Source: Siphonodentalium dalli (lineage: Eukaryota > Mollusca > Scaphopoda > Gadilida > Siphonodentaliidae). From it: a stretch of DNA of 64,000 bases. A program made the position numbers and the translations under genes. The notes under the pieces were generated by a model. The model saw only the letters and a list, made by a program, of their open reading frames with translations. It did not search any database and had not been told where the DNA came from. How positions within the stretch are numbered: the stretch's first letter is position 1; the number at the start of each line of letters is the position of its first letter. This document shows, piece after piece, positions 3,391 to 64,000 of this stretch. The stretch covers positions 93,989,345-94,053,344 of the forward strand of contig CP136061.1 of the NCBI GenBank assembly GCA_032622095.1, in the 5' to 3' direction.

Positions 3391-13721
<10,331 letters not shown>

Positions 13722-30084: not shown

Positions 30085-30925
30085 TTATAACGACCTGTTA
30101 TACCGTGCAATGAAATAATGTTTAATTGTCGACTTATCGTCGACGCTTAAGAGAGAATCGATAACTGTTCAAAAGTGGTGTGAATGATTTATGTGTGATT
30201 ATTTAACACGCAGTTGAAAATGTCGACGTCGCCTATGGGTGATATATGGAATCCTATTAGGGCCACTTTCTAATGGCGCTTTCTGCGCACTTTTTGTCGC
30301 TTTCGGCGCGCGCCGAAACATACCCTAATGGCGCGCCGAAAGCGACAAAAAGTGCGCCATTAGTAACGCGCCGAAAGCGACAAAATGTGCACCGTTACGG
30401 CGCACATTTTGTCGCTTTCGGCGCGCCGAAACATGCGCTAATATCGCACATTTTGTCGCTTTCGGCGCGCGCGCCGAAAGCGACAAAAAGTGCGCCGAAA
30501 GCGACAAATAGTGCGCCGTAACGGCGCATATTTTGTGGCTTTCGGCGCGTTACTAATGGCGCACTTTTTGTCGCTTTCGGCGCATCGCGCCGAAAGCGCC
30601 ATTAGCAAGTGGCCCTAATAGGATTCCATATTAATGCTATGTGTATATTATACATGCTATGTACCCCGAAACAGTATGTCCCAAATCAACGGCATTCAAC
30701 TTTCCTGATTTTTCCCATTCGCCACCAAACGATTTATCTTCAAACCAATTAATATTCTTGTGCGGAATTTTGCACTGAACGCCATGCAATTCGTATTTTT
30801 TAAAGAAATTAAATATTTAGTTAGTGGAAAGCATGTGAAGTCTTCCAAAAGCATGTCCCGTTATATATAATCATTACCCAAATGCATGCACGGTAGAGAC
30901 GGCTGATATTTTCACCAGAAACATA
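30085..30925. repeat. duplicated unit, part R2 copy 1
   Basis: Starts TTATAACGACCTGTTATACC and ends TTTTCACCAGAAACATA. It contains the GC-rich foldback at 30247-30628. The partner, 37334-38247, is almost identical outside the foldback. In this copy R1 and R2 are separated by only 12 bases. Confidence 0.88.
30247..30628. mobile_element. GC-rich foldback element with TGGAATCC ends, copy 1
   Basis: Ends TGGAATCCTATTAGGGCCAC and GTGGCCCTAATAGGATTCCA are perfect inverted copies flanked by TA on both sides. The interior is a cluster of short palindromic words, GCGCCGAAAGCGACAAA and its complement, alternating with GTGCGCC and CATTAGTAACGCG. TA flanks suggest a Tc1/mariner-like MITE, but the interior is unusual for that class. 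Confidence 0.75.
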
Positions 30926-32195: not shown

Positions 32196-35100
32196 CTAAT
32201 ATAAAGTATTTTTAAATAAATATTCCAATTTGTTTTCATCATCAAATTTTGCAAATAATGACCAGTGATCATGGAACATTTCTAAAGGAAATCTTTGACT
32301 GTCTACTAGTATTCTATATTTGATATCGTGCATGAAGAAAAAAGCGATGTCTGTTTTAGATATATTTTTTCCATGGCAGTACACTCTGTTTCTGCTTGAC
32401 CAAATTACTTGCCTATATGTTGCTAAAATGTGTAGATATGTCCCAAGATGTGCAGGCGATAAAACATTTGTTAGTATAGCTGGGCTCACGGAGAATAAAA
32501 TTAATCTGGCTTCTATGCGAAGTGGTCCGCCTACTAATCTGACTAAAAGTTCATAAAGAGCGTTTCTGATCAATTTTAAAAATTTGCAATGTAAAAAGCG
32601 GTGATATACTGTCTCCGCTTCGTGACAAAATATACAATTATATGTTCTGGAGATATTTAAAGAGCGTAATAAACTTTGACACAATATGGTGTTGTGAGAA
32701 ATGATCCATGATACACGTCTTCCTAAGGGTTCCATAAAACTGTGACGCAGCAGTTCCCAGACGCGTGCAAAAGGCACGTCTGGAAACTGCAGTTTCACTT
32801 TAGGAACGACTTTATCTTTATTTATGAGTAAATTGTAATAATCGCATGTTTTCATATTAATATGATCAATATTTGCAAAATCTATGGAACGTAACAGTTG
32901 TAAACAGGACTTGTAAAATGGGGAGGGGGTCAATGTATGTGGAGCGGAATTCGAAAATAAATTCGGATTATAATGTCTTAGTTGCAGTCCGAGCCAATAT
33001 CTGGCAAAGTATAACCATTTCTTGTCTTCTGCGGAATAAATAACTTGTCGGATATGATTCAAACGAAAGGCTTTCATTTTAAGATCAATGTTGACTGCGG
33101 CTAAGCCTCCGTCAACATAATCTTGAAAGAGAACTTTGCGTTTGACTAGTTCAATTTTAGAACCCCAAATAAAACGAAACATTTGTCTTTGAAATCTGTC
33201 ATGATAAAAGCGAGGTAACTCTAAATTTTGTCCGACATACCATAGTTTGCTACAAGCGAAAACTTTTGATTCAGTTGTCTTTCCGTGATAGGATAATCGG
33301 CGGGAAGTCCATAAATTTAGTATTTTTTCGTAATTTATCCAAATTGAGTGCCAAATGTCGTCTGAGGTTATGTTCTTTCCGAAATTAATGCCTAGTAATT
33401 TTTGGGGTCCGTCAGGCCATGAAATTCCGAATGCATGATCATCGGATACACGGAATTTCCCAAATTGTAGGCCTTTTGTCTTATTGATATTAATTTTGGA
33501 CCCTGAAGCTCTGCCATAGCGCTGTGCTAGTGATAAAAAACGTTTAACTGATTCTTCATCTTTACAAAAGGCTGTTGAATCATCGGCATAGAGGGAAATT
33601 TTGACTTGTTCGGAGCATCCGGGTGGATGTAACCCTATAATTCTCTGATCGGCGCGAACTTTAATGGCGAGTGGTTCAAGGCATAGGACATATAGCAGGG
33701 GAGATAAACTGCACCCTTGGCGGACTGAGCGTGATATGGGGAATGATGGGGAAATGTGTCCGTTAATATAAACGGAACTGGTTGCATCATTATACAATAA
33801 TCGTACGAAAGAACAAAACATTGGACCAAAACCGAAAGATTGGAGACATTGGAATAAATATGTGTGGTCTACCCTATCGAAGGCTTTCATTTGATCTAGA
33901 CAAATGAATGATATTGAAAGGTCTTTTTGTTCTACATAATCTAAAATGTTGCGGAATAAGTGTAGATTGTCAGTAATTGATCGACCCGGAGCAGAACAAG
34001 TCTGGTCCGGGTGGATCACTTCGCCGAGAACCTGTTTCATCCGCATTGATAAAATTTTTGAAAGAATCTTGTAATCTAGATTTAAAAGGGAAATAGGTCT
34101 CCAATATGCTAGTTCTTCCGCACGAGCTTTATCTTTGCAGATTAACGTAACGAGACCAGTTCTCTGTGATGGCGATAATGAACCTGTTAAATATAATTTG
34201 TTATATAAAGTGAGTAATTTCGGCCCTATGTAATCAAAAAATGTCAAATAAAAGTCTCTTGTGAGACCATCAGAGCCAGGGGCTTTACCAGATTGCATGT
34301 TTTTTAGAGACGATTTTATTTCATCTAAGGTAACTGGTCCCTCACATGAACTCGCTGACGTGTTCGAAATTTGTGGCACATCGTTTAAAAATTCATTCCT
34401 TATCTCTGGGTCTACTTCTTCTGCTGAGTACAGCTTTTTATAAAAATCTCGAGCATGATTGAGAATCGCGTCGTTAGTATCATACGTGTCATGTTCGTCG
34501 TGTAATTTTAGAATAATTTTTTCGGAGCTATTTTTGCTTTCTTTCATTGAAAAATATTTACCTGGTTGTTCGTTTCCATCTAGAAATTGTGCTCTGGCTC
34601 TAATTTTCGATCCTACTGATACATTTTGATCTAATTTTTGAAGTTGTCTTTTGACTGCTAAAATTTCTGATGTATATATGCCTGGGTCTAATGTATCTTG
34701 GCTTAAAATGTATCTATAATATTTTTCGCATTCCATAACTGCTTTGCTTTTAACTTTTGCTTTTTTCTTTGAATAAATTATGCAAAAACTTTTTATTTTT
34801 TCCTTCGTTGAATCCCACCATATGTCTATAGATTGGGTGATGGGAGGTAAATTGTTCCAAAATTTTATAAACTCATTAAAGAATTTTTTATCTTGTAGTA
34901 GAGAATCATTAAATTTCCAGTAACCTGGTCCTTGGGTAATTTTGGATTTTTGTTTCATTTTTAAAATTACATAATCGTGATCGGAAAAGGAGCATGGTTT
35001 GATGTCAATCGAAATTACATCATCTTTATTTCGTCTATAAATATAAAATCTATCTAATCGAGTAGCTACGCCTTGGCGTGTCCATGTTGTATTAACTAGA

Positions 35101-35665
35101 GTTGGATTTAAATGTCTAAAAATATCGATCAATTTATATTCCGTGCAATAAGCTTCTATGGTTTTGGATCCGACTGTGCCATTTATGGGATTTCCGCCAC
35201 GTTTATCTAATCTGGTATTTGATATGCAATTAAAATCGCCTCCCCAGATAAGGCATCGATTTGTTTTAAGATGGGAATGAATATTTTCGAGGAATTCTAC
35301 ACGCTCGCTTCCATCATTTGGGGCATAACTGTTTACAATTCGGTACCGGGATTCCCCAATTGAAAAATCAAGAACTAAAAGTCTGCCTTCGAAATCCCTA
35401 AAAATATTATCTAAAGTAAAGGGGACCCAATTTGCGATTAAAATTCCAACACCACGAGCTAAGTTAGTACCGAAAGACCAAAAAGATTTCCCTCCCCAAT
35501 CAGAGTTAACTTGTTTTGAAAATTTGATATTATCTATACATGCTTTTCTTGCAGGAGAATTATGTCAACTCTGTTTAACGTGCAAAAAGTAAACAGTTCC
35601 GCCCGTCTAGACATGTTGCGTAAACCACTCGCATTTAGCGTTAAGAATTTAAGGTCGTGATCCAT
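32196..35665 (-). pseudogene. LINE ORF2: endonuclease and reverse transcriptase, one frameshift
   Basis: ORF2 makes the nick (APE-type endonuclease) and copies the element's RNA into the site. It starts ATG at 35665 (MDHDLKFLTLNASGLRN) and reaches the endonuclease motif ILLQE. A single frame change follows near 35543-35549; from about 35545 the frame stays open to the stop at 32196. The endonuclease continues with VNSYAPND, GGDFNC and SDHDYV. Counted from codon 35132, the RT motifs are SGKAPGSDGL (281-290), LDQMKAFDRV (412-421, motif A), RQGCSLSP (471-478, motif B) and YADD (515-518, motif C). Near the end is a C-X2-C-X7-H-X4-C finger (CIFCHEAE..YHRFLHC). Total about 1,156 codons, usual for the group. 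Only the frameshift in the endonuclease is seen; the RT is intact. Confidence 0.85.
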
Positions 35666-37333: not shown

Positions 37334-38247
37334 TTATAACGACCTGTTATACCGTGCAATGAAATAATGTTTAATTGTCGACTTATCATCGACGCTTAAG
37401 AGAGAATCGATAACTGTTCGTTCAAAAGTGGTGTGAATGATTTATGTGTGATTATTTAACACGCAGTTGAAAATGTCGACGTCGCATATGGGTGATATAT
37501 GGAATCCTATTAGGGCCACTTGCTAATGGCGCTTTCGGCGCACTTTTTGTCGCTTTCGGCGCGCGCCGAAACATACCCTAATGGCGCACTTTTTGTCGCT
37601 TCCGGCGCGCGCCATTAGGGAGTGGACCTAATAGTATGCCTAATGGCGCTTTCGGCGCGCGACAAAAAGTGCGCCATTAGTAACGCGCCGAAAGCGACAA
37701 AATGTGCACCGTTACGGCGCACATTTTGTCGCTTTCGGCGCGCCGAAACATGCGCTAATATCGCACATTTTGTCGCTTTCGGCGCGCGCGCCGAAAGCGC
37801 CGAAAGCGACAAAAAGTGCGCCGAAAGCGACAAATAGTGCGCCGTAACGGCGCATATTTTGTGGCTTTCGGCGCGTTACTAATGGCACACGTTTTGTCGC
37901 TTTCGGCGCATCGCGCCAAAAGCGCCATTAGCAAGTGGCCCCAATAGGATTCCATATTAATGCTATGTGTATATTATACATGCTATGTACCCCGAAACAG
38001 TATGTCCCAAATCAACGGCATTCAACTTTCCTGATTTTTCCCATTCGCCACCAAATGATTTATCTTCAAACCAATTAATATTCTTGTGCGGAATTTTGCA
38101 CTGAACGCCATGCAATTCGTATTTTTTAATGAAATTAAATATTTAGTTAGTGGAAAGCATGTGAAGTCTTCCAAAAGCATGTCCCGTTATATATAATCAT
38201 TACCCAAACGCACGGTAGAGACGGCTGATATTTTCACCAGAAACATA
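37334..38247. repeat. duplicated unit, part R2 copy 2
   Basis: Starts TTATAACGACCTGTTATACC directly at the 5' end of the LINE and ends CCAGAAACATAG. Differences from copy 1 are few outside the GC-rich foldback. Confidence 0.88.
37500..37954. mobile_element. GC-rich foldback element with TGGAATCC ends, copy 2
   Basis: Same ends and interior words as 30247-30628 but 73 bp longer. The extra sequence (about 37600-37660) holds a further partial end (CATTAGGGAGTGGACCTAAT), as if the palindrome had been partly re-duplicated. Confidence 0.75.
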
Positions 38248-48624: not shown

Positions 48625-49480
48625 AACAGGCATGTTCTCATTAAGGTATATCATAGCGGCCATTTTGGGTCTTTTCTGGTATCATTGACCCAAGAAAAGT
48701 ACGAGTAATACAGCGAATGGTTTACCCACAATCTTCATATAGCTGGACATAAGGTAATATCGCGAAATGTACCGACTGTTGCGGGTGATCGCAATGGCGG
48801 CCATTTTGTTTCTCCCTAAGTTGTCGATTGCAGATGTTTTTGTCAGATGATATTGAAGGATTAGTTGCGGTCATATAAACGTCATAATGTTCAAATATTT
48901 GTGACATATTATGATTGGTTTTGTGTTTTTTTCTGAAAAATTGTTGAAAAAAAAATCGAGTTTCTCAAATTCTGAGCCATATTCTGGCGGCCATCTTAGA
49001 TGTTGATTTACAAATTTGACATCAGTTAACGTAGAAATATATAAGGAACCAAATGAAATTTATTGCAATGTCATAGCTCTATTGATTTTTCCACAATCGT
49101 CATATGAATAGACAGAGTAATATCGCGAAATGTACCGACTGTTGCGGGTGATCGCACTGGCGGCCATTTTATTTTTTCCCTGAGTTGTCGATTGCAGATA
49201 TTTTGGTGAGATGATATTGAAGAATTACTTGCGGTCATATAAACGTCATAATGTTCAAATATTTGTGTCATATTGTGATTGGTTTTGTGTTTTTTTCTGA
49301 AAAAATTGTTGAAAATGTTTTTAATTTATGAAATTCTGAGCCATATTCTGGCGGCCATCTTGGATTTTAATTTACAAATTTAATATCAGTTAACAGAAAA
49401 ATATATAAGGAACAGAATGCAATTCATACATAGACATAGGGAAAAATCGCGAAATTTTCCAACCCTCATGGGCGCCATCT
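48625..49480 (+). repeat. ~362-bp tandem repeat, two copies plus a partial third
   Basis: CGCGAAATGTACCGACTGTT occurs at 48761 and 49123; CATAATGTTCAAATATTTGTG and TGATTGGTTTTGTG recur at the same spacing. A partial third unit runs from about 49349. Units carry GGCGGCCAT(T/C)TTG words. Two similar 60-codon minus frames result from the duplication. Confidence 0.85.
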
Positions 49481-49639
49481 TGGATTACGTCATATGCGGC
49501 CAGGTTGATTTCTTGTTAACATCCGGAATTCTACTCTAGAGGTATCCAGGTACATTAAAAAACGGTCCGGAGGAGTCCTGGGGGGGGGTCCATATGGGGT
49601 ATACCTAGCTGCCCGACTAATAACAATGATGATATTTAG

Positions 49640-50146
49640 TGGACTTTTACCCGGCACCGAACTCTACGTGACTTCGCACTAAGTGAGGTGTGGAAAATAA
49701 AAGCATAAATGTATCCAAAATAGACTTAAGAATATCAGCTGTAACAAAAATGTATATATCAGAAATTGTAAATGCTATATTTTGGGACGGAGCCGGCAAA
49801 TGCCGTATTTTCACGCAAGTAGATAAACGATTCTTAATAGCCTGCACATTGACAATATCTGTGTGTATTTTACGATATACGTTCGATGACGTTGTGTTGT
49901 TTACGTTGTGTGAATTTAGAGTTGTACTTCCTGCATCGGGTCACATCACGCCGTGCCAAGGACTCAAGCAATGGGGAGTGGAGAATGTGTGCCGCACGGG
50001 CAAACGGATAGGCCGATGTTACTCCTCGGGTCAAACTACACACCCGTACCAAGTTTCGTCAAAATCGGTTGAGCCGTTTTCGAGTCCATCGCGGACACAC
50101 ACACACACACCCTCACACACAAACTTTTCCTCAAATATATAATAGA
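49640..50146 (-). mobile_element. Helitron-like 5' end (3' end not found)
   Basis: On the minus strand the sequence starting at 50146 is TCTATTATATATTTGAGG, directly after the CTAG of the neighbouring Helitron. It is followed by GTGTGTG repeats and the block GACGAAACTTGGTACGGG, GTGTAGTTTGACC shared with the other Helitrons here. I could not locate a hairpin plus CTAG to close the element; the left limit is a guess. Confidence 0.45.
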
Positions 50147-51319
50147 CTAGCAGGTTAGCCCGCCACTGGCGGCAATCGTCAGAAATATGACAATATTTAA
50201 GTTTTAATTTTTGTTAATTAAATTGTTTTGTTTTTCAATGAGTTAATTGTGCCTTTTTAATTTTTCGTCTCATGGCTTTGTTCGAAAAAGCAATTGCAAC
50301 AGCTTCCGAGACACGTATGCTGCACCTAGGTGTACAATTTCGTCGAAATCAGCGAGTTTTACCCGATTTGACCTTGAATTGATCAGTAGGCTTCAATATT
50401 CGACACGGAAATTGACTGCCGTGGGCCACGGACTGCCGTAACAGTTGATAACATGTTCACATTCGGCGGATCGGGCACTGCGGTCAGTCAAAAAACATAA
50501 CGCGCACGCTATAACTCCGGTATCACTAACGTACGCGGCATTGGAAGGGTCAGGTTAACTTCCGCCTGGACCCACGTGGCGTGACGTAATTCACAACCAC
50601 GTGTATTTACCTCGAAAGTGTTAAAATTGCGCGACCGCGACACACACAATGGCCCGATATTGGGCACACGTTCCCTGGCATTTCCCAGAAGATATTCATG
50701 GGGAGGTCAAGTGACCAATTTTGAAATTTGCTGGTCGCATTCGTCTGTATGTCTGAGGAATTCTCGGCTAGATATTGTTACCAACATTACATATTTAAAT
50801 TAATCCCGCCGTGGACCCCATCACCAACGGCAACGCGACATGTGCTGCGTTCTAAAATTAGGTCGATTGCAGTGGATTCGTACAGATGACGAAATATGAG
50901 TGCGACAGATAATATTGTTTGATCGAAAGCATTTGAATTAATACGTCGCAAAACTCGCCTTGATGTTGGCTAATAGATATTTGTCCCTGCTAGGTGTTGG
51001 GAATGTCGTCACACAACACGCTCATGTCTGCATACAGTCTTACACGCACACGCCGAGACCCAGACGTAAGAATGACATTAGGCATATACGCTCTTTATCA
51101 ACTACAATGCGATAGGAACGCTCTTTAACTATCAACGCGATTAACCCCGGCCGTACCTTTGCGGTGATTTTGAGAGTGGAGAACGCGTGCTCTGAGCGAC
51201 GACGATTCCCGTGTGTTTTTACATTTAGATGGGAAGTTTGAACTCAATCGAGCGAACCGTTTTCGATTCTATGAAGTACATACATATATATATACGAAGT
51301 CTCAAATATATAGTATAGA
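50147..51319 (-). mobile_element. Helitron H1 (minus array), family 1
   Basis: On the minus strand it starts TCTATACTATATATTTGAG (51319) and ends with hairpin CCGCC-AGT-GGCGG, GCTAACCTG and CTAG (50150-50147). Termini match the three plus-strand Helitrons at 56117-59810. No Rep/helicase frame; non-autonomous. Confidence 0.82.
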
Positions 51320-52676
51320 CTAGCCGATGAGCCCGACGTTGTCCGGGCTATTCAAAAACCAAATTTCAAGTCGATAGCTCCACCCGTTTCCGAGATCTGG
51401 TCTGCGCATGCGCGAAGCTGGCGTCGCACGGGCTCGGCGACCCGATACAATTCGTATCCGTTTCCGAGATCTCGTCTGCGCATGCGCTGCACGGGCGTCG
51501 TGTTTTTTAATTTTATTCGGCCTTTTTCGGGCGGAAAAACTGACCCGATGAAATCCCCCCTTCCCTTCCTATGAACGACAGCACAACACGCATTTTTTTG
51601 TTTTTCATGAATTAATTCATGGTACCCGTCCCTCAAAGACTGACCCGATGAAAATTCCCCTGTTCCTAGGACATATATGACACAACAACCCATTCTGCCT
51701 TTTTAATCGAGATAATTGCATTCCGCGTTTCGTTTTGCATCCGTATTTTACGCATGGGTAGCCGTTTAGCAGCTTCGATTGTAATAAAGAGCGTTCATTC
51801 TTAAAGGGGTACTGTACCCCAATTTCAATAAATTCCCAGTGACAATAGCGATCTAATATGAATATTATATTATAAAATAACTAATTTGAGTCGACGATGT
51901 CTACTGAAAACGTTCCGGTTAACAGGCTATCGTAAAAGTTAAATTGAATTATTTAATATAAATTCATTTATGGCTGGAGTCATAAAATGGAGAATTATGC
52001 CATTACGAGTTACCGTTCTTGAAATCGCATATGTTGCATATATCGACGGCCATTCGCGAACATTATTGAGTTGCAAACAAAACATGTTACCTGCAATAGA
52101 AGGCATTTATAACCGATTCGGGGAAAAAGGAGAAAGAAACAAGAGTCATAAAGCGTCAAGTATTGTATAGGGAGAGAGATTGTTCGATGGAAGAGATTGA
52201 ATGCATCAATCGAGCTGTGAGCAATGAACTTCCGGTGATTCCTGCGATCTGCGTCTTCTCCAGTGAAGGTCAAAAACATGGCGCGTAGTTTGAAATCGTA
52301 ATATTTTTGTTTCCAAGATCAATATTTTCTTCGCTAAATTAGGTTTATACGAAACTCATATAACACGAACACAATCTAACTTGAAAGTTATTTCAATGGG
52401 AGTAAATAAAAAAATCGCCTATCTTAGTGTACAGTACCCCTTTAACACCTCCGAATATGGTCAATATAAAGATCGTTGATGCCATAACCCCCGAAGTGGC
52501 GTTTGCGGTGATTTTGATTGGGAGTGGAGAATCGGTGCTCAGAGCTTGTCCAAAATGCGACGTCGACGATTCCCGTGGGATTTTACCTTTGGATAGGAAG
52601 TTTGGTCTCGATCGGTCAACCCGTTTTCGATTCTATAAAGGACATACAGACAGAGGTCTTCAAAATATATATGAGA
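51320..52676 (-). mobile_element. Helitron H2 (minus array), family 2, with nested TTAA element
   Basis: Starts TCTCATATATATTTTGAAG at 52676 and ends with hairpin AGCCCGGACAACGTCGGGCT, CATCGG and CTAG (51323-51320). Without the nested element (51805-52441) it is about 716 bp, similar to H3 and H4. It contains the TTTCCGAGATCTGGTCTGCG block once and a truncated second. Confidence 0.82.
51805..52441. mobile_element. TTAA-flanked MITE (637 bp) nested in Helitron H2
   Basis: Ends AGGGGTACTGTAC and GTACAGTACCCCT are perfect 13-bp inverted copies, flanked by TTAA at 51801-51804 and 52442-52445. No transposase. The interior is AT-rich. Confidence 0.85.
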
Positions 52677-53243
52677 CTAGCCGATGAGCCCGACGTTGTT
52701 CGGTATATTCAAAAAACCAAATTTCAAGTCGATAGCTCTACCCAGCCCGACATTGTCCGGGCTATTCAAAAACCAAATTTCAAGTCGATAGCTCTACCCG
52801 TTTCCGAGATCTGGTCTGCGCATGCGCGAAGCTGGCGTCGCACGAGCTCGGCTACCCGATAAAATTCGTATCCGGGGCAAGATACATTCACATACCAAAT
52901 TTCAAGTCGATAGCTCCACCCGTTTCCGAGATCTCGTCTGCACATGCACGAAGCTGGCGTCGCACGGGCTCGGCGACCCGATAAAATTCGTATCCGGGGT
53001 AAGATACATTCACATAGCAAATTTCAAGTCGATAGCTCCACCCGTTTCCGAGATCTCGTCTGCGCATGCGCTGCACGGGCGTCGCACGGGCTCACCAATA
53101 CGACAACGACGACCGCCTGGTCAAACTACACACACGTACCAAGTTTCGTCCCGATCGGTCGAGAATCGTAGATTTGTATAAATGACTTACAGACATACAG
53201 ACAAACAAACAAACAAACAGAGGTCTTCAAAATATATAGGAGA
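52677..53243 (-). mobile_element. Helitron H3 (minus array), family 2
   Basis: Starts TCTCCTATATATTTTGAAG at 53243, ends CTAG at 52680-52677. Its 3' hairpin is altered (CCCGACGTTGTTCGGTATAT on the plus strand); an intact hairpin copy, AGCCCGACATTGTCCGGGCT, follows at about 52746, as though the 3' end had been partly duplicated. Confidence 0.75.
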
Positions 53244-53570
53244 CTAGCCGATGAGCCCGACGTTGTCCGGGCTATTCAAAAACCAAATTTCAAGTCGATA
53301 GCTCTACCCGTTTCCGAGATCTGGTCTGCGCATTCGCGAAGCTGGCGTCGCACGGGTTCGGCGACCCGATAAAATTCGTATCCGGGGCAAGATACATTCA
53401 CATACCAAATTTCAAGTCGATAGCTCCACCCGTTTCCGAGATCTGGTCTGCGCATGCGTGAAGCTGGCGTTGCACGGGCTCGGCGACCTGATAAAATTCG
53501 TATCCGGGGCAAGATACATTCACATACCAAATTTCACGTTGATAGCTCCACCCGTTTCCGATATCTCGTA
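52780..53570 (-). repeat. ~121-bp Helitron-internal repeats
   Basis: CCCGTTTCCGAGAT occurs near 52799, 52920, 53042, 53308, 53431 and 53551, a 121-123 bp spacing within H3 and within H4. Each unit carries CTGCGCATGCGC and ATTCGTATCCGGGG. Equivalent units in inverted orientation are at 57065-57240 and 58280-58570. Confidence 0.85.
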
Positions 53571-53881
53571 TGTAAGAGTACTATGGCCCGTATATCTCTC
53601 TGCAGATGCTAATAACGTTGAATGGTAAACAAACGCTCTTTATAGCGATGCGTCAAAAACAAACGCTCATTAAATTATCACTTGATTAACCACCGCAGTG
53701 CCGTTTTTTTGTGACTGAGAGTGGAGAATGGGTGCTCTGGGCTTCTCCAAAATGCGACGTCGACGATTCCCGTGGGATTTTACATTTGGATAGGAAGTTT
53801 GGTCTCGATCGGTCAACCCGTTTTCGATTGTATAAATGACAGACAGACAAACATACAGAGGTCTTCAAAATATATATGAGA
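53244..53881 (-). mobile_element. Helitron H4 (minus array), family 2
   Basis: Starts TCTCATATATATTTTGAAG at 53881 after an A on the minus strand (T at 53882), the expected A|TC target. Ends with hairpin AGCCCGGACAACGTCGGGCT and CTAG at 53247-53244. It carries three ~121-bp units. Confidence 0.82.
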
Positions 53882-56116
53882 TAAGACAGTGCGGTGGGTT
53901 GTAGCAGAGCGAGTTACAATGTGATAATAAGAATGCGGTTTCGAGCCACGAATCCACAGGGCTGCTCTCGGTCTTCACGTGGAAATATATATATATCCAC
54001 ATGTATTAAATAAACTGAGAAATCATGGTCTCATCAAATCGTGTGGTGCATTTCATCAGGTCTTCTTGTCCGTAGGTGGGAAAGCAATTGGTGAAAGTAT
54101 GGGTCTTGGGGACCATTTAAATTCAGAGATATCTAGTGTAGTTTTGACTCTTGAGATAAATGGGTATAGTCGGATTCCTTATGTCATTTTGCATTTTTGG
54201 TTTGTTAAAAGCGATCTGAAAACGGATTATGTATGCCTAGTAGGTGTGTTTTCAGGATTCACTTGTTTCCATTCTTGAATTTTGGCGGGTCGGCCTAAAT
54301 CGGGGTCAACATAATTTAGAGAGCGTTTAGTATTTACAGAAAACGATAGATGGTGCCATCTGGCGTATGGCAATCGGTGCGATTTGAAACTTCTCCAAAC
54401 TACTAGATATGACTGTTACATGTATTTTTGAAAATTTTGATGTGATCTGTTCATTCTTGTTGGCTACAGTTGTGATCAAAATTTAACACTGAGCCCTATG
54501 GAGATTCTAGTACTTTGGATAAATGGCGCCATTTTGCGTATTATGATATGCGCGTACTGATATTTCTAAAAAATACTAAGTATGAAACACAGACGTAGTT
54601 TTTAAAAGAATGGATGTGATCAGATGATTCTTGCTGGGTACAGTTGCGATCAAAATTTAACACTTAACCCTATGGAGAATTTCGTGTTATGCTCAAACGT
54701 TGATTGTAATATCATTTATTGACAATCGTGCGCAACTATATATGTGGACCACACTCGTGTTAGCCCCAATGCAACTATCCGTGATTTAGTAGATACAAAA
54801 CATGATATAGTTATGCATCAAGATACAGTAATTGGCAAAAGTAAGTGTCGAATGGTTTTGTAATTTCGATAATATGCAGCCTGTTGAATCAAATGAAAAT
54901 AGTCACAACAAGACTGTTCACGATGTTATTACATGTTATATTATTGTTTTATTTGATACTTGTCTGTCTTGTTGTCCACTGAATATTTTTTAAAACCACA
55001 TCGTTGATCATAACGGGATGTAGTGTCACAAATACACAGTTATATAGATGGTAGTTGTTCGTTGTCATTAACTCAATCGTTGTCATCGGAGTCCATCCCA
55101 CATGCACTGAGAGAATCTGTGTGTTTTCGCAGGATTTGTGCTACTGATAAATGGACATTTCGGTGCAGCTGATATCTTTACTATAGCGGTATAGGCTTTG
55201 CTTCAATACTTCCCAAGTCAGTTACATTTGCCAACTTCAGTACAGCGACTGAAACCCAACATTCACCATCTATATTCTGACCACAGTCAATTTCCACGCT
55301 TCGTGTGTAGATGTGAAAATCAAGTAAATTCGAATTTCCACTAAAGTAGAACTTTATTAGTAAAATAGATATCAACCATAGTTGCATTTCCTGCAAATTC
55401 CCAGTATGTTCTTAGTAACCGTTACTAATGAGCTATCGGGACCGGTGGCAAAGTCTCCCGATCTTATAATGATCAGTGGCCTATGCAGAGCATGGCTGCA
55501 TAGTTTTATACATACATGTGCCCAACTTTGAACAAAACCAGCACCATGTGATTAGACACGGACTAAATGAAGGCAATACCAATGAATGATTAGTACACCA
55601 TTGTGGCATTTGATTAGCAACCGTTGCTAACCTTAAATAAGACATATGGTTCACTTTGACGGCCAGGTATATATATCTCAAATTTCACAGTTGGGTATTA
55701 ACTGCATCGGAAACGCAAACGTTGAATTACGACCCTATCAGCTACAATTGCAATTTCTAGTGAATTCCCGGTAATTTCCTAGACTAAGTTTCTCGACCTT
55801 ACAATGATCAATGGCCCATGGGGCACTAACATGTACAGTTTCATATCTGCGTCACATTTGAACATAACCAATACCATCCGACTAAAGACACTATCTAATT
55901 TACGGGAAAATGGCACGGCCCAGAATGTTGATCGGTTCAAAGCCAAGTATATTATCGGGGGAGAACGATCCATTAAGCCTAAGTCGATGGTTTGTTCACA
56001 ACAGATGGGGTCATGCTACATTATGAATGATGATGGAAGTGTCCCCTCAAATATGTTCTTCGACACAGCATTGTCCCCGCACTGTGTCACTTGCATCTTA
56101 CTGTGTTGTCTATCTA
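53882..56116. other. spacer between the two Helitron arrays, with two local tandem duplications
   Basis: About 54430-54700 holds two diverged copies of a ~190-bp unit (GATCAAAATTTAACACT and CCCTATGGAGA in each). About 55385-55570 and 55750-55935 are a second diverged pair (AATGATCAGTGGCC / AATGATCAATGGCC, then GTGCCCAACTTTGAAC-like and CACCATGTGATTAGAC-like blocks). No gene is recognised; the 135-codon plus frame at 55804-56211 runs across the repeat into a Helitron end and is not credible. Confidence 0.55.
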
Positions 56117-57342
56117 TCTATACTATATATTTTGAGACTTCGTATATATGTGTGTATGTGTGTGTGTGTGTGTGTGTACTTCATAGAATCCAAAACGCGT
56201 GTACAGATTGAGATTAAATTTCGTATGTAAGTGTAAAATCGCACCGACACGAACGTGGTCGCGGTTTAGAGAAGCTCAGAGCACCCGTTCTCCAATCTCA
56301 AATCACCGCATAGGCACGGCGGGGGTTAATCAAGTGATTATTTAATGAGCGTTTGTTTTTGACGCATCTCTATAAAGAGCGTCTTTTTCCCCATTCAACG
56401 TTATTCGCATCTGCAGAGTTATACGGGAACGCAAACGTTATCGCTCGAAATTTATTCCCGGCGAGCACGGATGGCGCGCTCTGTTTTTACAGTATATACC
56501 TTCGGTATATACCGAAATCATCCCAGATAATCACGAATATAGCATCAGATTTCTCCCCAGATATACCGTTATAAAGCTAATGGAATCTGCCAATCTACGG
56601 GAAATTCCAGGGAATGCCGATTGAGCTCAAACTTGCTACCTACGGGAAGTGTCATACATATGAGTGTGTCCTTTATAGACTCTAACCGATTGAGCTCAAA
56701 CTTGCTAAATAAGAAAATAGCCCACAAGCCGTAAATATCAACAACAACGATATTGCTACCTACGGGGAGCAACGTTATTAGCATCTGCAGAATTATGCAG
56801 AGAGAAAGTGCTTTCCTATTTTTAGAACGCAACACATGTTTACGTCGCGTTGGTGATTGAGGTTCACAACGGGGTTAATTGACTGTCCGCTCTTTGCGAC
56901 GATGAGGTTCACGGCGGGGACTATTGACCAACACTCACAATTTCGTCTTTTGCATCAGATACCAACACCTCGACCGATCGGGACGAAACTTGGTACGTGA
57001 GTGTAGTTTGACCAGGTGGTCGTCGCTGTCGTATTGGCGAGCCCGTGCGACGCCCGTGCAGCGCATGCGCAGACGAGATATCGGAAACGGGTGGAGCTAT
57101 CGACTTGAAATTTGGTATGTGAATGTATCTTGCCCCGGATACGAATTTTATCGGGTCGCCGAGCCCGTGCGACGCCAGATACGCGCATGCGCAGACCAGA
57201 TCTCGGAAACGGGCGGAGCTATCGACTTGAAATTTGGTTTTTGAGTAGCCCGGTCCTGTACGGGGTTACATTGAAAAACTAAAATTAATGGATCGACCAA
57301 AGCCATGGGACGAATGCCGCCAGTGGCGGGCTAACCTGCTAG
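56117..57342 (+). mobile_element. Helitron H5 (plus array), family 1
   Basis: Starts TCTATACTATATATTTTGAG after an A (56116). Ends with hairpin CCGCC-AGT-GGCGG (57317-57329), GCTAACCTG and CTAG (57339-57342). TG repeats follow the 5' end. The interior has GACGAAACTTGGTACGTG and two ~121-bp units. Non-autonomous. Confidence 0.85.
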
Positions 57343-58676
57343 TCTATACTATATATTTTGAGACTTCGTATATATGTGTGTATGTGTGTGTGTGTGTACT
57401 TCATAGAATCCAAAACGCGTGTACAGATTGATCTCAAACTTCCTATGTAAGTGTCAAATCCCACCGACACGACCGTGGTCGCGGTTTAGAGAAGCTCAGA
57501 GCACCCGTTCTCCAATCTCAAATCACCGCAAGGCACGGCGTGGGTTAATCAAGTGATTATTTAATGAGCGTTTGTTTTTGACGCATCTCTATAAAGAGCG
57601 TCTGATTGCCATTCAACGTTATTTGCATCTGCAGAGAGATATACGGAACATACATTAAATTTAAAAAAACATTTGTTTCTGACCAACCCTGCGAGCACGG
57701 ATGGCGCGCTTTGTTTTTACAGTATATAGTTATATACCGAAATCATCCCAGATAATCACGAATATAGCATCAGATTTCTCCCCAGATATATCGTTATAAA
57801 GCTACTGGAATCTGCCAATCTACGGGAAATTCCAGGGAATGCCGATTGAGCTCAAACTTGCTACCCACGGGAAGTGCCATATATATGAGTGTGTCCTTTA
57901 TAGACTCGAACCGATTGAGCTCAAACTTGCTAAATAAGAAAATAGCCCCCAAGCCGTAAATATCAACAACAACGATATTGCTACCTACGGGGAGCAACGT
58001 TATTAGCATCTGCAGAATTAAGCAGAGAGAAAGTGCTTTCCTATTTTTAGAACGCAACACATGTTTACGTCGCGTTGGTGATTGAGGTTCACAACGGGGT
58101 TAATTGACTGTCCGCTCTTTGCGACGATGAGGTTCACGGCGGGGACTATTGACCAACACTCACAATTTCGTCTTTTGCATCAGATACCAACACCTCGACC
58201 GATCGGGACGAAACTTGGTACGTGAGTGTAGTTTGACCAGGTGGTCGTCGCTGTCGTATTGGCGAGCCTGTGCGACACCCGTGCAGCGCATGCGCAGACG
58301 AGATATCGGAAACGGGTGGAGCTATCGACTTGAAATTTGGTATGTGAATGTATCTTGCGCCGGGTACAAATTTTATCGGGTCGCCGAGCCCGTGCGACAC
58401 CCGTGCAGCGCATGCGCAGACGAGATCTCGGAAACGGGTGGAGCTATCGACTTGAAATTTGCTATGTGAATGTATCTTGCGCCGGGTACACATTTTATCT
58501 GGTCGCCGAGTCCGTGCGACGCCAGCTTCGCGCATGCGCAGACCAGATCTCGGAAACGGGTGGAGCTACCGGGTACAAATTTTTCTTATTGAAACGCGTG
58601 GAGCTAAAAATTAAAAAAAAATATTTAAAAAATGTCATGTTTCGGACAAGCCGCCGGTGGCGGGCTAACCTGCTAG
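57343..58676 (+). mobile_element. Helitron H6 (plus array), family 1
   Basis: Starts TCTATACTATATATTTTGAG directly after the CTAG of H5. Ends with hairpin CCGCCGGTGGCGG and CTAG at 58673-58676. The sequence is close to H5 over most of its length, including CGATTGAGCTCAAACTTGCT and GAACGCAACACATGTTTACG; it has three ~121-bp units. Confidence 0.85.
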
Positions 58677-58698
58677 TACTATATATTTTGAGACTTCG

Positions 58699-58740
<42 letters not shown>

Positions 58741-59810
58741 ATAGAATCCAAAACGCGTGTACAGATTGAGCTCAAACTTCCTATGTAAGTGTCAAATCCC
58801 ACCGACACGACCGTGGTCGCGGTTTAGAGAAGCTCAGAGCACCCGTTCTCCAATCTCAAATCACCGTAAAGGCACGGCGTGGGTTAATCAAGTGATTATT
58901 TAATGAGCGTTTGTTTTTGACGCATCTCTATAAAGAGCGTCTGTTTGCCATTCAACGTTATTTGCATTTGCAGAGAGATATACGGAACATACATTAAATT
59001 TAAAAAACATTTGTTTCTGACCAACCCTGCGAGCACGGATGGCGCGCTTTGTTTTTATAGTATATAGTTATATACCGCAATCATCCCAGATAATCACGAA
59101 TATAGCATCAGATTTCTCCCCAGATATACCGTTATAAAGCTACTGGAATCTGCCAATCTACGGGAAATTCCAGGGAATGCCGATTGAGCTCAAACTTGCT
59201 ACCCACGGGAAGTGTCATATATATGAGTGTGTCCTTTATAGACTCGAACCGATTGAGCTCAAACTTGCTAAATAAGAAAATAGCCCCCAAGCCGTAAATA
59301 TCAACAACAACGATATTACTAAATACACGTTTTCGGCAATGTGAGAGTTTTCGGGGAGCCGTGATGCCAACAACAACGACCCGAAGCCCTGAATGCCAAC
59401 AACAGATTCAATGCAATGTTATCTATTATGCAGAGAGATTTCACGACATTACGACGGGTACGGCAGACTCAAAATATTATGCAGACAGATTTCCCGACGG
59501 GAAGCGTTTGTTTTAAATTCAATGCAATGTTATCGTAGAGAGATTTCACGAAACAAAGAATGCGTTGTCTGTCGTTCCTAGGAAGGGGGAATTTCTACGG
59601 GTAAATTTTTCCGCCAGAAACAAAAAAATTAATTAAAACAATTTACAATTTAATTAAAACAATTTAAAATTAAAAAAAATTAACAATAAAAAAACAATTC
59701 AGAAACAAAATATATTAAATTTAAAAAACATTAAATTCATATTCAAAAATGACATGTTTCTGAAACAAAGCCATGGGACGAATGCCGCCAGTGGCGGGCT
59801 AACCTGCTAG
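58677..59810 (+). mobile_element. Helitron H7 (plus array), family 1, 5' end short
   Basis: Begins TACTATATATTTTGAG right after the CTAG of H6, so the first four bases (TCTA) of the family 5' end are missing. Ends with hairpin CCGCC-AGT-GGCGG and CTAG at 59807-59810, followed by TACTATATATAAG. It lacks the ~121-bp units and instead has a different, A-rich 3' half. Confidence 0.82.
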
Positions 59811-60892
59811 TACTATATATAAGACCAAACACATAATGCACACATATATCTTCTTATAACTAAATTATCTCTTAGAAAGTGTCCAGAGATTTCTTGCCTA
59901 TTTATACTGACAATTTATTTTTATTCTTGTGGCAAAGGATTTGAGGGAGTGATTTGTTATGCTGACTAAGGTGCTATATAACTCAGTATGTGAAACATGT
60001 ATGCCGGGGGATGTATCGAGTGGACGGGGAAAGTATTTTCTTTATCATCAGATGAACATAATTTAAACTCCCAATTTTGATAAACCCGACCAGGAATTGT
60101 AGAACAACCATCTATATATGGCAATATTTAGCAATACATATGGACATGATAACAATGTTTAACATTTTTAAACGATATCACCCTATCCACATGTATGGCT
60201 AAACATATCACTGGCATAGATGAGTTGTTGTAGTTGTTAGATTTATGCTGGTCGGGTTTCTCCAAATTTAATACCAAAACAGAATGATCCATAAGCTACG
60301 GTGGCTGGTTTAGGACATGGGAAATTGTTTTGTTTATTTCGTGGCCACGAAATACTAATTCGTTGCCACGAAATTACTAATTCGTGGCAACGAAATACTA
60401 ATTCGTGGCGTATTATAACTGATTGACCTTTGCATATATTCAGATACCTTTACGGAGGATGGGATATTTTATATCAATATACACATATTATAATACATAA
60501 TACATTTGACAAATATTGTATTGTATATTCGAGGGGTGGCATAGTCAGGCTAGACTGTCTTACTGCCACCCTGCTATACGGTATGGTTACACTTGATGAT
60601 GTTTTTAGAAACAATGCGTACGATCTCAGAGAAGCTACCATAAACCCCGTATGGCGTGGGACCCGGGCTCTATGTGGATATGAACGTCCGATATAAACTA
60701 GCCCAGAGACACTGTGGAGGATATATTCCTAGGAATGTGGTGCTCTCCCGAGCAATATTTACGTGCTTAGCGAGCAAATATTCCGGTGTTCTGTCACATT
60801 TTGCTCATTGTGCGACATAAATGACATGCGTGGGTAATAAACACGCATTTTAGTAATGTTTTAAACGCAAATATTGGACGACTGAATACGAG
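59811..60892. other. unassigned, with a small palindromic repeat at 60346-60412
   Basis: Four tries of CACGAAATACTAATTCGTGG-like sequence (60346-60412) alternate in orientation and can fold on themselves. No gene is supported in the remainder. Confidence 0.5.
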
Positions 60893-61699: not shown

Positions 61700-62150
61700 C
61701 ACCGGGACATGACAATCTGCGGGATGGGATGGGATATGGGACAAAACGACAATCTGCGGGACAGAATTTCAAATTGCGTGGGACGGCCGATATCTCGAGG
61801 AATACAGGGCGTAGGGGGGCTCATTTTGGTGTCTAACGAAATGCCCACATTCGCCCTATCCACACATATTAACCCCGCCACTGACCGGACACCAGAAGTT
61901 GCATTATTTGATCGACAACTGACCTAACATGGGGTGGAATTTGGGATAGCATGACAATCTGCGGGACGGGATTTTCAAATTGCGTGGGACGGCCGATATC
62001 TCGAGGAATACAGCGCGTAGAGGGCTCATTTTGGTGTCTCACGAAAGGTCCACATTCGCCCTATCCACACATATTAACCCCGTCACTGACCGGACACCGG
62101 AAGTTACATTATTCGCTCGACAACTGACCTAACATAAAATGCCACAAACA
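61700..62150 (+). repeat. ~205-bp tandem duplication
   Basis: AATCTGCGGGACAG at 61751 and AATCTGCGGGACGG at 61956; GGCCGATATCTCGAGGAATA and ATTCGCCCTATCCACACATA recur at the same distance. A short third trace (AATCTGCGGGATGG) is at 61709. Confidence 0.88.
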
Positions 62151-63744: not shown

Positions 63745-64000
63745 GAAGTCACCTTATTAACCCTTTCTATATTACAGCACCATTGGCGTGTAGTTACCTT
63801 ATTAACCATTCTATATTAAATCATTAATTGACAGGTAGTTACCTTATTAACCCTTTCTATACTAAGTAACATTGGTGAGTAGTTACATTATTAACCCTTT
63901 CTATATTAAAGCACCATTGATGTGAAGTTACCTTATTAACCCTTTCTTTATTAAAGCATCATTGACGCGTAGTTACCTTATTAACCCTTTCTATATTAAA
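63745..64000 (+). repeat. 45-bp satellite, about six copies, running off the window
   Basis: CCTTATTAACC or its one-base variant begins near 63752, 63797, 63842, 63887, 63932 and 63976, so the period is 45 bp. Each unit reads about GTAGTTACCTTATTAACCC, then TTTCTATATTAAAGCACC and ATTGA. The array is cut by the window end, so its full length is unknown. Confidence 0.9.

Follow-up and report, generated by a model that had tools for sequence, protein, structure and literature searches.

The DNA analysed here, referred to as the window, is a 64,000-nucleotide stretch of the genome of the scaphopod mollusc Siphonodentalium dalli (contig CP136061.1, hereafter C1, positions 93989345-94053344; the genome comprises 2.23 Gb in 9 contigs), in which two arrays of Helitron transposons lie on opposite strands, 2.2 kb apart. 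The left array consists of four Helitrons on the minus strand, arranged head-to-tail at 50147-53881, plus a decayed fifth unit, and the right array of three Helitrons on the plus strand, likewise head-to-tail, at 56117-59810. All seven elements have their own CTAG at the 3' end, and each abuts the next unit of its array directly. An earlier note had described these two opposed arrays, with their 5' ends facing the spacer, and its coordinates and strands are confirmed by scans for element ends and by the printed ends themselves; the left array is not limited to four units, however, and continues past the CTAG of L4 into a fifth 5'-type end from 50146 downwards. We find that the head-to-tail joining of the units, and not the mirrored layout, is the real feature of this locus. 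Two kinds of joint are distinguished: site 1, A^TCTATAC with one or more TCTA (the caret marks the insertion point), and site 2, TCTA^TACTATATAT. The features are as follows.

53244-53881, minus strand: L1, non-autonomous family-B Helitron, 5'-most unit of the left array; 5' end TCTCATATATATTTTGAAGACC, with a host A preceding TC, and 3' CTAG
52677-53243, minus strand: L2, family-B Helitron, 3' hairpin decayed and partly duplicated
51320-52676, minus strand: L3, family-B Helitron split by an insert resembling a miniature inverted-repeat transposable element (MITE)
about 51803-52443 (limits approximate), unstranded: the MITE-like insert within L3, with inverted ends AAAGGGGTACTGTACCCC and AGTGTACAGTACCCCTTT, by direct reading
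50147-51319, minus strand: L4, family-A-type Helitron; 5' end TCTATACTATATATTTGAGACTTCG, 3' hairpin of type A, CTAG
49600-50146 (49600 arbitrary), minus strand: L5, decayed fifth unit; 5'-type end TCTATTATATATTTGAGG right after the CTAG of L4
53882-56108, unstranded: spacer between the arrays; inverted match to the outer flanks at most 16 bp
56109-56116, plus strand: two extra TCTA units ahead of the R1 5' end, by direct reading
56117-57342, plus strand: R1, family-A Helitron with an internal family-B block, from its ends and sequence comparisons
57343-58676, plus strand: R2, family-A Helitron with an internal family-B block; site-1 joint CTAG/TCTATAC with R1
58677-59810, plus strand: R3, family-A Helitron; site-2 joint CTAG/TACTATATAT with R2
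59811-59831, plus strand: 3' flank of R3, TACTATATATAAGACCAAACA, a TATA-like target site that scores above 99.97% of background A^T sites

By their structure, the window elements are canonical Helitrons, with a 5' TC, a 3' CTAG preceded by a candidate short hairpin, insertion at A^T, and RepHel-encoding partners elsewhere in the genome. The TC terminus is present in six of the seven elements, and the 3' CTRR terminus is CTAG in all seven. As candidates for the hairpin that canonical Helitrons carry about 10-12 nt from the 3' end, stems of 5-6 bp fold in L1, L3, L4, R1 and R3, with R2 less clear and L2 decayed; the folding energies are not clearly better than those of shuffled sequences (z from -0.24 to -1.84). 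Insertion occurs at A^T without target duplication: A precedes TC at 9 of 9 outer 5' ends among 12 control loci (L035-L046, three of which were joints and which include two pairs with the same or nearly the same flank), and CTAG is followed by T in the right array as well as wherever a 3' end is open, with exceptions in L004, L021 and one case in L046. The family-A partner, the only one sampled, is an 8,459-bp element with A ends (L016, C1:90679000-90688900), with RepHel broken into frames of 664, 421 and 554 aa. The family-B partner (L047), with B ends, about 8.7 kb long and located near C1:13.74 Mb, has a 1614-aa RepHel frame without a stop that contains the Helitron_like_N (PF14214) and PIF1 (PF05970) domains and aligns with Helraiser (7lcc_A, E 2.4e-271, residues 157-1587). 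Its tyrosines 833 and 837, counted on the alignment, lie opposite Helraiser Y727 and Y731, mutation of which abolished transposition (PMC4778049). R1-R3 match the A element at 92-98%, in one or two pieces, over roughly their first 210 bases (R3 lacking the first four) and at 94-96% over their last 27-54 bases, and given this resemblance at both ends, the right-hand units look like non-autonomous derivatives of the 8,459-bp element. Helentrons, or Helitron2 elements, have non-canonical ends and target and carry an endonuclease domain in autonomous copies. Assignment to this group (including HINE) was rejected in view of the TC and CTAG ends and the A^T target; no endonuclease was among the Pfam hits.

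Along the left array, the order of families is B, B, B, A and a third type, and the right array has A ends throughout. A 26-mer, CCGCCAGTGGCGGGCTAACCTGCTAG, is the identical 3' end of L4, R1 and R3 and differs by one base in R2; 3' end B, AGCCCGGACAACGTCGGGCTCATCGGCTAG, is present in L1 and L3 and decayed in L2. The earlier proposal that one family with common termini sits on both sides holds in so far as L4 and R1-R3 share 3' end A, but the left array is mostly family B, and R3 starts with TACTATATAT directly behind the CTAG of R2, with no TC. This start is best read as a 5' end that was cut four bases in by an insertion, rather than as decay. R1 and R2 (56117-58676) are chimeras, with A ends around blocks of the family-B 5' region that include 122-bp repeats: the internal block of R1 is 93% like bases 76-294 of the family-B autonomous element, and that of R2 is 88% like bases 76-322. 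They perhaps arose when a 3' end was read through within an array of mixed families. L5 matches Helitron-bearing loci at 77-82% over 114-140 of its first 154 bases; its 3' end was not located.

The mirrored layout could come from an inverted duplication of one ancestral array, as the earlier note had suggested, and end type A does occur on both sides. Moreover, the window contains 70 inverted matches, the longest up to 389 nt at 91%. Among the 25 longest listed of these 70, however, 19 pass through a 122-bp internal repeat, found by Tandem Repeats Finder in both arrays and common to family B and R1/R2, and the other 6 through related 5' regions, so that the matches reflect shared element sequence and not mirrored loci. 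When the spacer and ~2 kb of each outer flank were compared with one another, BLAST found no inverted match longer than 16 bp. The order and families of the units are not mirrored either, the left array belonging mostly to another family, and R1-R3 are closest to units at other loci. An inverted duplication is therefore hardly credible. The search for opposed arrays that had been proposed as a check, conducted on the first 48.3 Mb of C1 with 94 array loci defined from the listed A- and B-type joints combined, showed that the arrangement recurs: there are 4 neighbour pairs on opposite strands within 15 kb, compared with 1.35 expected at random (2 divergent and 2 convergent, with one array shared by two pairs), and 7 pairs of separate same-strand arrays 5-15 kb apart. 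With pairs of both kinds present, the arrays appear to cluster somewhat in either orientation. The mirrored layout is ordinary, most likely consisting of two independent arrays of opposite orientation 2.2 kb apart.

Head-to-tail joints number in the thousands. Counts given here are genome-wide, and positional tests used the first 100 places listed for each pattern, all of them on C1 except in the scan for joints with up to 6 free bases. The exact 22-mer of the family-A 5' end, TCTATACTATATATTTTGAGAC, occurs 4172 times, and the 27-mer in which this end stands right after GCTAG has 1966 exact copies (0 for the reversed control). Site-2 joints of the form CTAG/TACTATATATTTTGAGAC, that is, CTAG/TAC, number 1827, and the form with extra TCTA, TCTATCTATAC, 884; the B-type joint was found 7162 times, and the 14-mer pattern of 3' end A 8604 times. 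At least 3793 of the 5999 family-A 5' ends counted (~63%) lie directly behind CTAG, a lower bound, as joints with extra TCTA fall outside this figure. A looser pattern, GCTAG followed by 0-30 free bases and then TTTTGAGACTTC, yields 6055 joints (reversed control 3), and only 5 of them have up to 6 free bases (control 1), none in the form expected for insertion at deeper A^T sites. Nearly all of the 100 joints listed are family-A site 1 or site 2, or the TC start of related subfamilies, with a handful irregular. Orientation is nearly uniform as well: neighbouring listed family-A 5' ends within 10 kb of each other point the same way in 86 of 87 cases (C1 below 58.3 Mb).

What lies behind the 3' ends in host DNA resembles the elements' own start. 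The motif TATAWA begins at +2 to +9 in 51 of 72 host flanks of 3' end A and in 59 of 74 of 3' end B, compared with 104 of 4942 background sites, namely, A^T sites of the window chosen by the same rule (T, not-C, not-C); the flanks come from one contig, and unrecognised old Helitron ends may hide among them. These flanks remained from 87 unique A and 85 unique B flanks after 15 and 11, respectively, were removed as Helitron-5'-like, and one more B flank, a one-base variant without the motif, was left out (59/75 if included). The searches required flanks to start T, not-C, not-C; C is thus excluded at +2 and +3, hence the scoring matrix uses +4 to +17. At +6 to +11, G or C is almost lacking, and T and A alternate in phase. 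When A^T sites are scored with the host-site matrix, the element's own 5' end is the top-scoring site in six of the seven window elements (79-216 candidates each) and second of 258 in L3. The site-2 sequence outscores all 10,320 background A^T sites, and B site 1 falls near the 99.7th percentile; A^T sites further inside the A end range from the 51st to the 61st. Of 100 listed sequences after 3' end A, 76 pass a filter for Helitron sequence (at least one of these is a 3' end and not a 5' end) and 24 are host-like; 19 are site-2 joints. Thus, the earlier idea of a preferred integration region is supported and can be made more precise: insertion favours the 5' end of a Helitron already present or, where the target is host DNA, an A^T with a TATA-like motif shortly beyond it, on the 3' side of the insertion point.

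This motif could be a TATA box or merely easily melted TA-rich DNA. Open frames downstream of 18 sites were listed for a promoter reading, with nothing decisive, the frames not having been searched against families; G after the motif has no clear enrichment over TATA-bearing background sites aligned on the motif. The flank of R3, TACTATATATAAGACC, may equally well be the 5' end of an older Helitron or a TATA-like host site. The same family-B flank, TTGTTATATAAAAGAATATGG, was observed at C1:1873822, 30301629, 30325598 and 72833257, two of these 24 kb apart, with a one-base variant at C1:3508538; such flanks are either a repeated target or copies of one insertion.

If an incoming copy entered at site 2, the first TCTA of the resident would remain outside, upstream of the newcomer, and an association between extra TCTA and site-2 joints is indeed observed. 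Of the 44 listed 5' ends with extra TCTA, 22 have a site-2 joint up to 2.5 kb downstream and 5 have one up to 2.5 kb upstream (Fisher 0.00015, which serves only as a guide, two directions of the same ends being compared). In a matched region, a site-2 joint is found within 2.5 kb downstream of 13 of 24 extra-TCTA ends and of 5 of 35 single-TCTA ends not after GCTAG (Fisher 0.0016), and the same comparison gives 9/24 versus 0/35 at 1.5 kb, 15/24 versus 5/35 at 3.5 kb and 16/24 versus 6/35 at 5 kb. For all listed single-TCTA ends, joints included, the counts are 15 of 76 downstream and 8 of 76 upstream. The right array, with two extra TCTA before R1 and one site-2 joint downstream, suits this idea: one of the two would have been left behind from the 5' end of R3 when a copy entered at TCTA^TAC, and the other may be host sequence or a further leftover. 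Exact conservation of one TCTA per unit was rejected, as L012, L013 and L025 have one too many, and we therefore claim a statistical association only.

Relationships among units were compared for 68 units from 13 sampled arrays and the right array, with a 58-base fragment set aside. The loci were not sampled at random: L001-L013 were chosen for their several joints; L017-L034 come from the extra-TCTA list, leaving out loci already included, known joints, the window and the second of two sites that share an array; and L035-L046 are single-TCTA ends not after GCTAG from the 5'-end list, again without loci already included. Full-length comparison places every right-hand unit nearer to a unit from some other locus than to the adjoining units: the best match comes from L009 for R1 (96.7%), from L007 for R2 (98.7%) and from L006 for R3 (98.5%). 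Identity between R1 and R2 is 93.2% over 1136 bases, and that between R2 and R3 is 96.9%, confined to the first 646 bases. Of 99 joints found, 76 were classified; in the other 23, one side held no unit that was recognised. Identity between neighbours is 99.5% or more at 9 of 37 site-1 joints and 1 of 15 site-2 joints; unlike neighbours (below 97%, or with no match over 60% of the shorter unit) are joined at 25 of 37 and 12 of 15, respectively.

Several loci show organisation above the level of the unit. L007 (C1:49027500-49037499) is a higher-order array in which units of 1301, 1118 and 1301 bp recur every 3.72 kb and are 99.8-99.9% alike between periods; a 3720-bp spacing is also seen at C1:8977640-8981360. 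At L008, together with C1:58272511, 58282093 and 58288892, the 3' flank TAACATATATTACAATATACA occurs three times within 17 kb, and a whole array module, flank included, seems to have been duplicated. L035 and L036 (C1:6055485-6058185 and 6463681-6466381, ~0.41 Mb apart) hold a Helitron whose two flanks agree between these loci, which suggests a segmental duplication.

These relationships bear on how the joints arose. If a circle were copied more than once and the multimer inserted in one event, CTAG/TC joints would exist from birth, exactly the joint carried by Helraiser circles (PMC4778049). Such concatemers fit the arrays L001, L002, L011 and L013, in which neighbours are identical or nearly so; in L001, three units have 100% identical neighbours, and their best relatives among the other loci sampled are only 98-99% alike. 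The nine site-1 joints between near-identical units can be read in the same way. In the window, however, R1, R2 and R3 differ over their full length, each being nearer to units elsewhere, and the left array mixes B, A and a third type. The predominance of joints between unlike units (some of them repeats of each other, in L007 and L008) does not agree with this account, and its plain version does not predict a CTAG/TAC joint with an extra TCTA upstream. Hence the repeated rolling-circle events invoked by the earlier note suit some other arrays of identical units and not those of the window, and as the general explanation, we regard concatemers as unlikely, though deserving of some weight. A further possibility, that tandem units were amplified locally through gene conversion or unequal crossing-over, would account for the higher-order repeats of L007 and the repeated module with its flank in L008, but requires two adjoining units to begin with, cannot make the first exact joint, and is at odds with the heterogeneity of the window units; we consider it quite unlikely to be the source of the arrays.

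We consider it probable that canonical Helitrons inserted repeatedly at the 5' ends of resident copies, with concatemers contributing the arrays of identical units, and that the window holds two such arrays of independent origin. The incoming element, probably circular with its CTAG linked to TC, would enter the 5' terminus of a copy already in place, using either site 1, the A^TC boundary, or site 2, TCTA^TACTATATAT, as between R2 and R3. The motif being directional, newcomers would take the same orientation and the array would grow at its 5' side. R3 would then be the oldest unit of the right array, with R2 and R1 added upstream one after the other or both together; in the left array, arrivals would have begun with L5 and finished with L1. 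Elsewhere, arrays made up of identical units were probably inserted as rolling-circle concatemers. The mirrored look would result from the proximity of the two oppositely oriented arrays, 2.2 kb apart. This scheme is drawn from sequence comparisons.

Several observations weigh against this scheme. No age gradient is apparent: of 14 site-2 pairs, 8 run in the expected direction, with a closer relative for the upstream unit (sign test 0.79, from best-relative identities, with one tie left out). Site-2 joints outnumber extra-TCTA ends, 1827 to 884, and the arrays L012, L013 and L017 have extra TCTA and show no site-2 joint, so that the leftover rule is inexact. Family-A site 1 reaches only the 74th percentile with the A matrix and the 86th with the B matrix, yet it accounts for 1966 joints against 1827 for site 2, so that about half of the joints lie outside the prediction of the motif. 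Furthermore, by a rough estimate, the motif alone would direct ~0.7% of insertions to site 2, compared with 19 of 100 listed 3' ends. This discrepancy calls for an extra factor, which might be recognition of the transposase-bound 5' end or the spread of ready-made arrays.

Beyond repeated insertion as such, we tentatively propose, giving it slightly less than even weight, that RepHel recognises targets by the TATA-type sequence that marks its own 5' terminus, so that each copy carries its own landing pad, arrays extend in the 5' direction, and copies in host DNA come to lie just upstream of TATA-box-like sequences. If so, repeated site-specific insertion would be a route from a dispersed transposon to satellite-like DNA, and host copies would stand at a near-fixed spacing and orientation upstream of TATA-box-like sequences, possibly promoters. 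Target choice would be tied to 5'-end recognition in a eukaryotic rolling-circle transposon. The genome offers thousands of exact joints of two kinds, and one of these, CTAG/TAC accompanied by a leftover TCTA, looks like the trace of an insertion into the 5' end of a resident.

The remainder of the window contains other features. A 1122-aa frame at 32196-35564 on the minus strand matches reverse transcriptase, with weak endonuclease and zinc-binding matches below the cut-offs, and is flanked by repeats of the same 21-bp unit at 30471-30518 and 37797-37844, 7.3 kb apart. Tandem or direct repeats occupy 5557-6593 (174-bp period), 63747-64000 (45-bp period) and 48754-49427 (copy pairs ~364 bp apart). 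In the right flank, 106 bp at about 61703-61808 match L002 (C1:5.80 Mb) at 99%, a recent repeat.

The origin of tandem Helitrons, by circle concatemers or by repeated insertion, is not settled in the literature examined. Publications scanned by title and the start of the abstract, which lie outside most subscription journals, mentioned no Helitron that has a target of TATA type or carries its own landing site, and this is weak evidence of novelty. Close counterparts are the canonical Helitrons of Helraiser or Helibat type; Helraiser forms circles with CTAG/TC joints and prefers AT-rich targets, most strongly towards the 3' flank (PMC4778049). The elements described here share with it the TC and CTAG ends, with a candidate upstream palindrome, A^T insertion without target duplication, an AT-rich target, and a RepHel alignable from residue 157 to 1587. 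They differ in the phased TATA-type motif on the 3' side of the target and in that over half of the counted family-A 5' ends lie behind another 3' end; Helraiser re-insertions are described as showing no clustering around donor sites (PMC4778049). Tandem Helitrons of plant centromeres (Xiong et al. 2016, as described in PMC12628747, a review of the routes to tandem elements) are likewise head-to-tail, and rolling-circle replication is proposed for them. They are described as truncated, often with several 5' ends and one 3' end, unlike the window elements, all seven of which keep their own 3' CTAG end, and unlike those plant arrays, site-1 joints here link like units in 9 of 37 cases and unlike units in 25 of 37.

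Insertion at or near the 5' end of another Helitron has been reported as single cases in fungi (PMC5148889, which also cites tandem insertions in bat, Drosophila, rice and maize). The fungal elements are of the Helitron2 type, with other ends and another target, and comprise one or few cases, as opposed to thousands here, for which no motif is offered in the part covered. Maize Helitrons insert near or inside others (PMC3288121 and PMC12477314, citing Yang and Bennetzen 2009), and an AT preference is described for a wheat Helitron (PMC13286980). The non-autonomous rolling-circle HINEs of oysters also contain internal tandem repeats (here, the 122-bp unit), but are defined by subterminal inverted repeats and a 3' palindrome (PMC7492417), whereas the window elements have canonical ends and target. 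A further parallel is the formation of transposon dimers through insertion-site preference, by which tandems can seed satellites (McGurk and Barbash 2018, as described in PMC12628747): there, too, repeated insertion at the same preferred site builds tandems, but those elements are from Drosophila and generate target-site duplications, whereas here it is the element itself that contains the preferred site. What makes this locus interesting is the joining mechanism, as a variant of known tandem and self-insertion behaviour.

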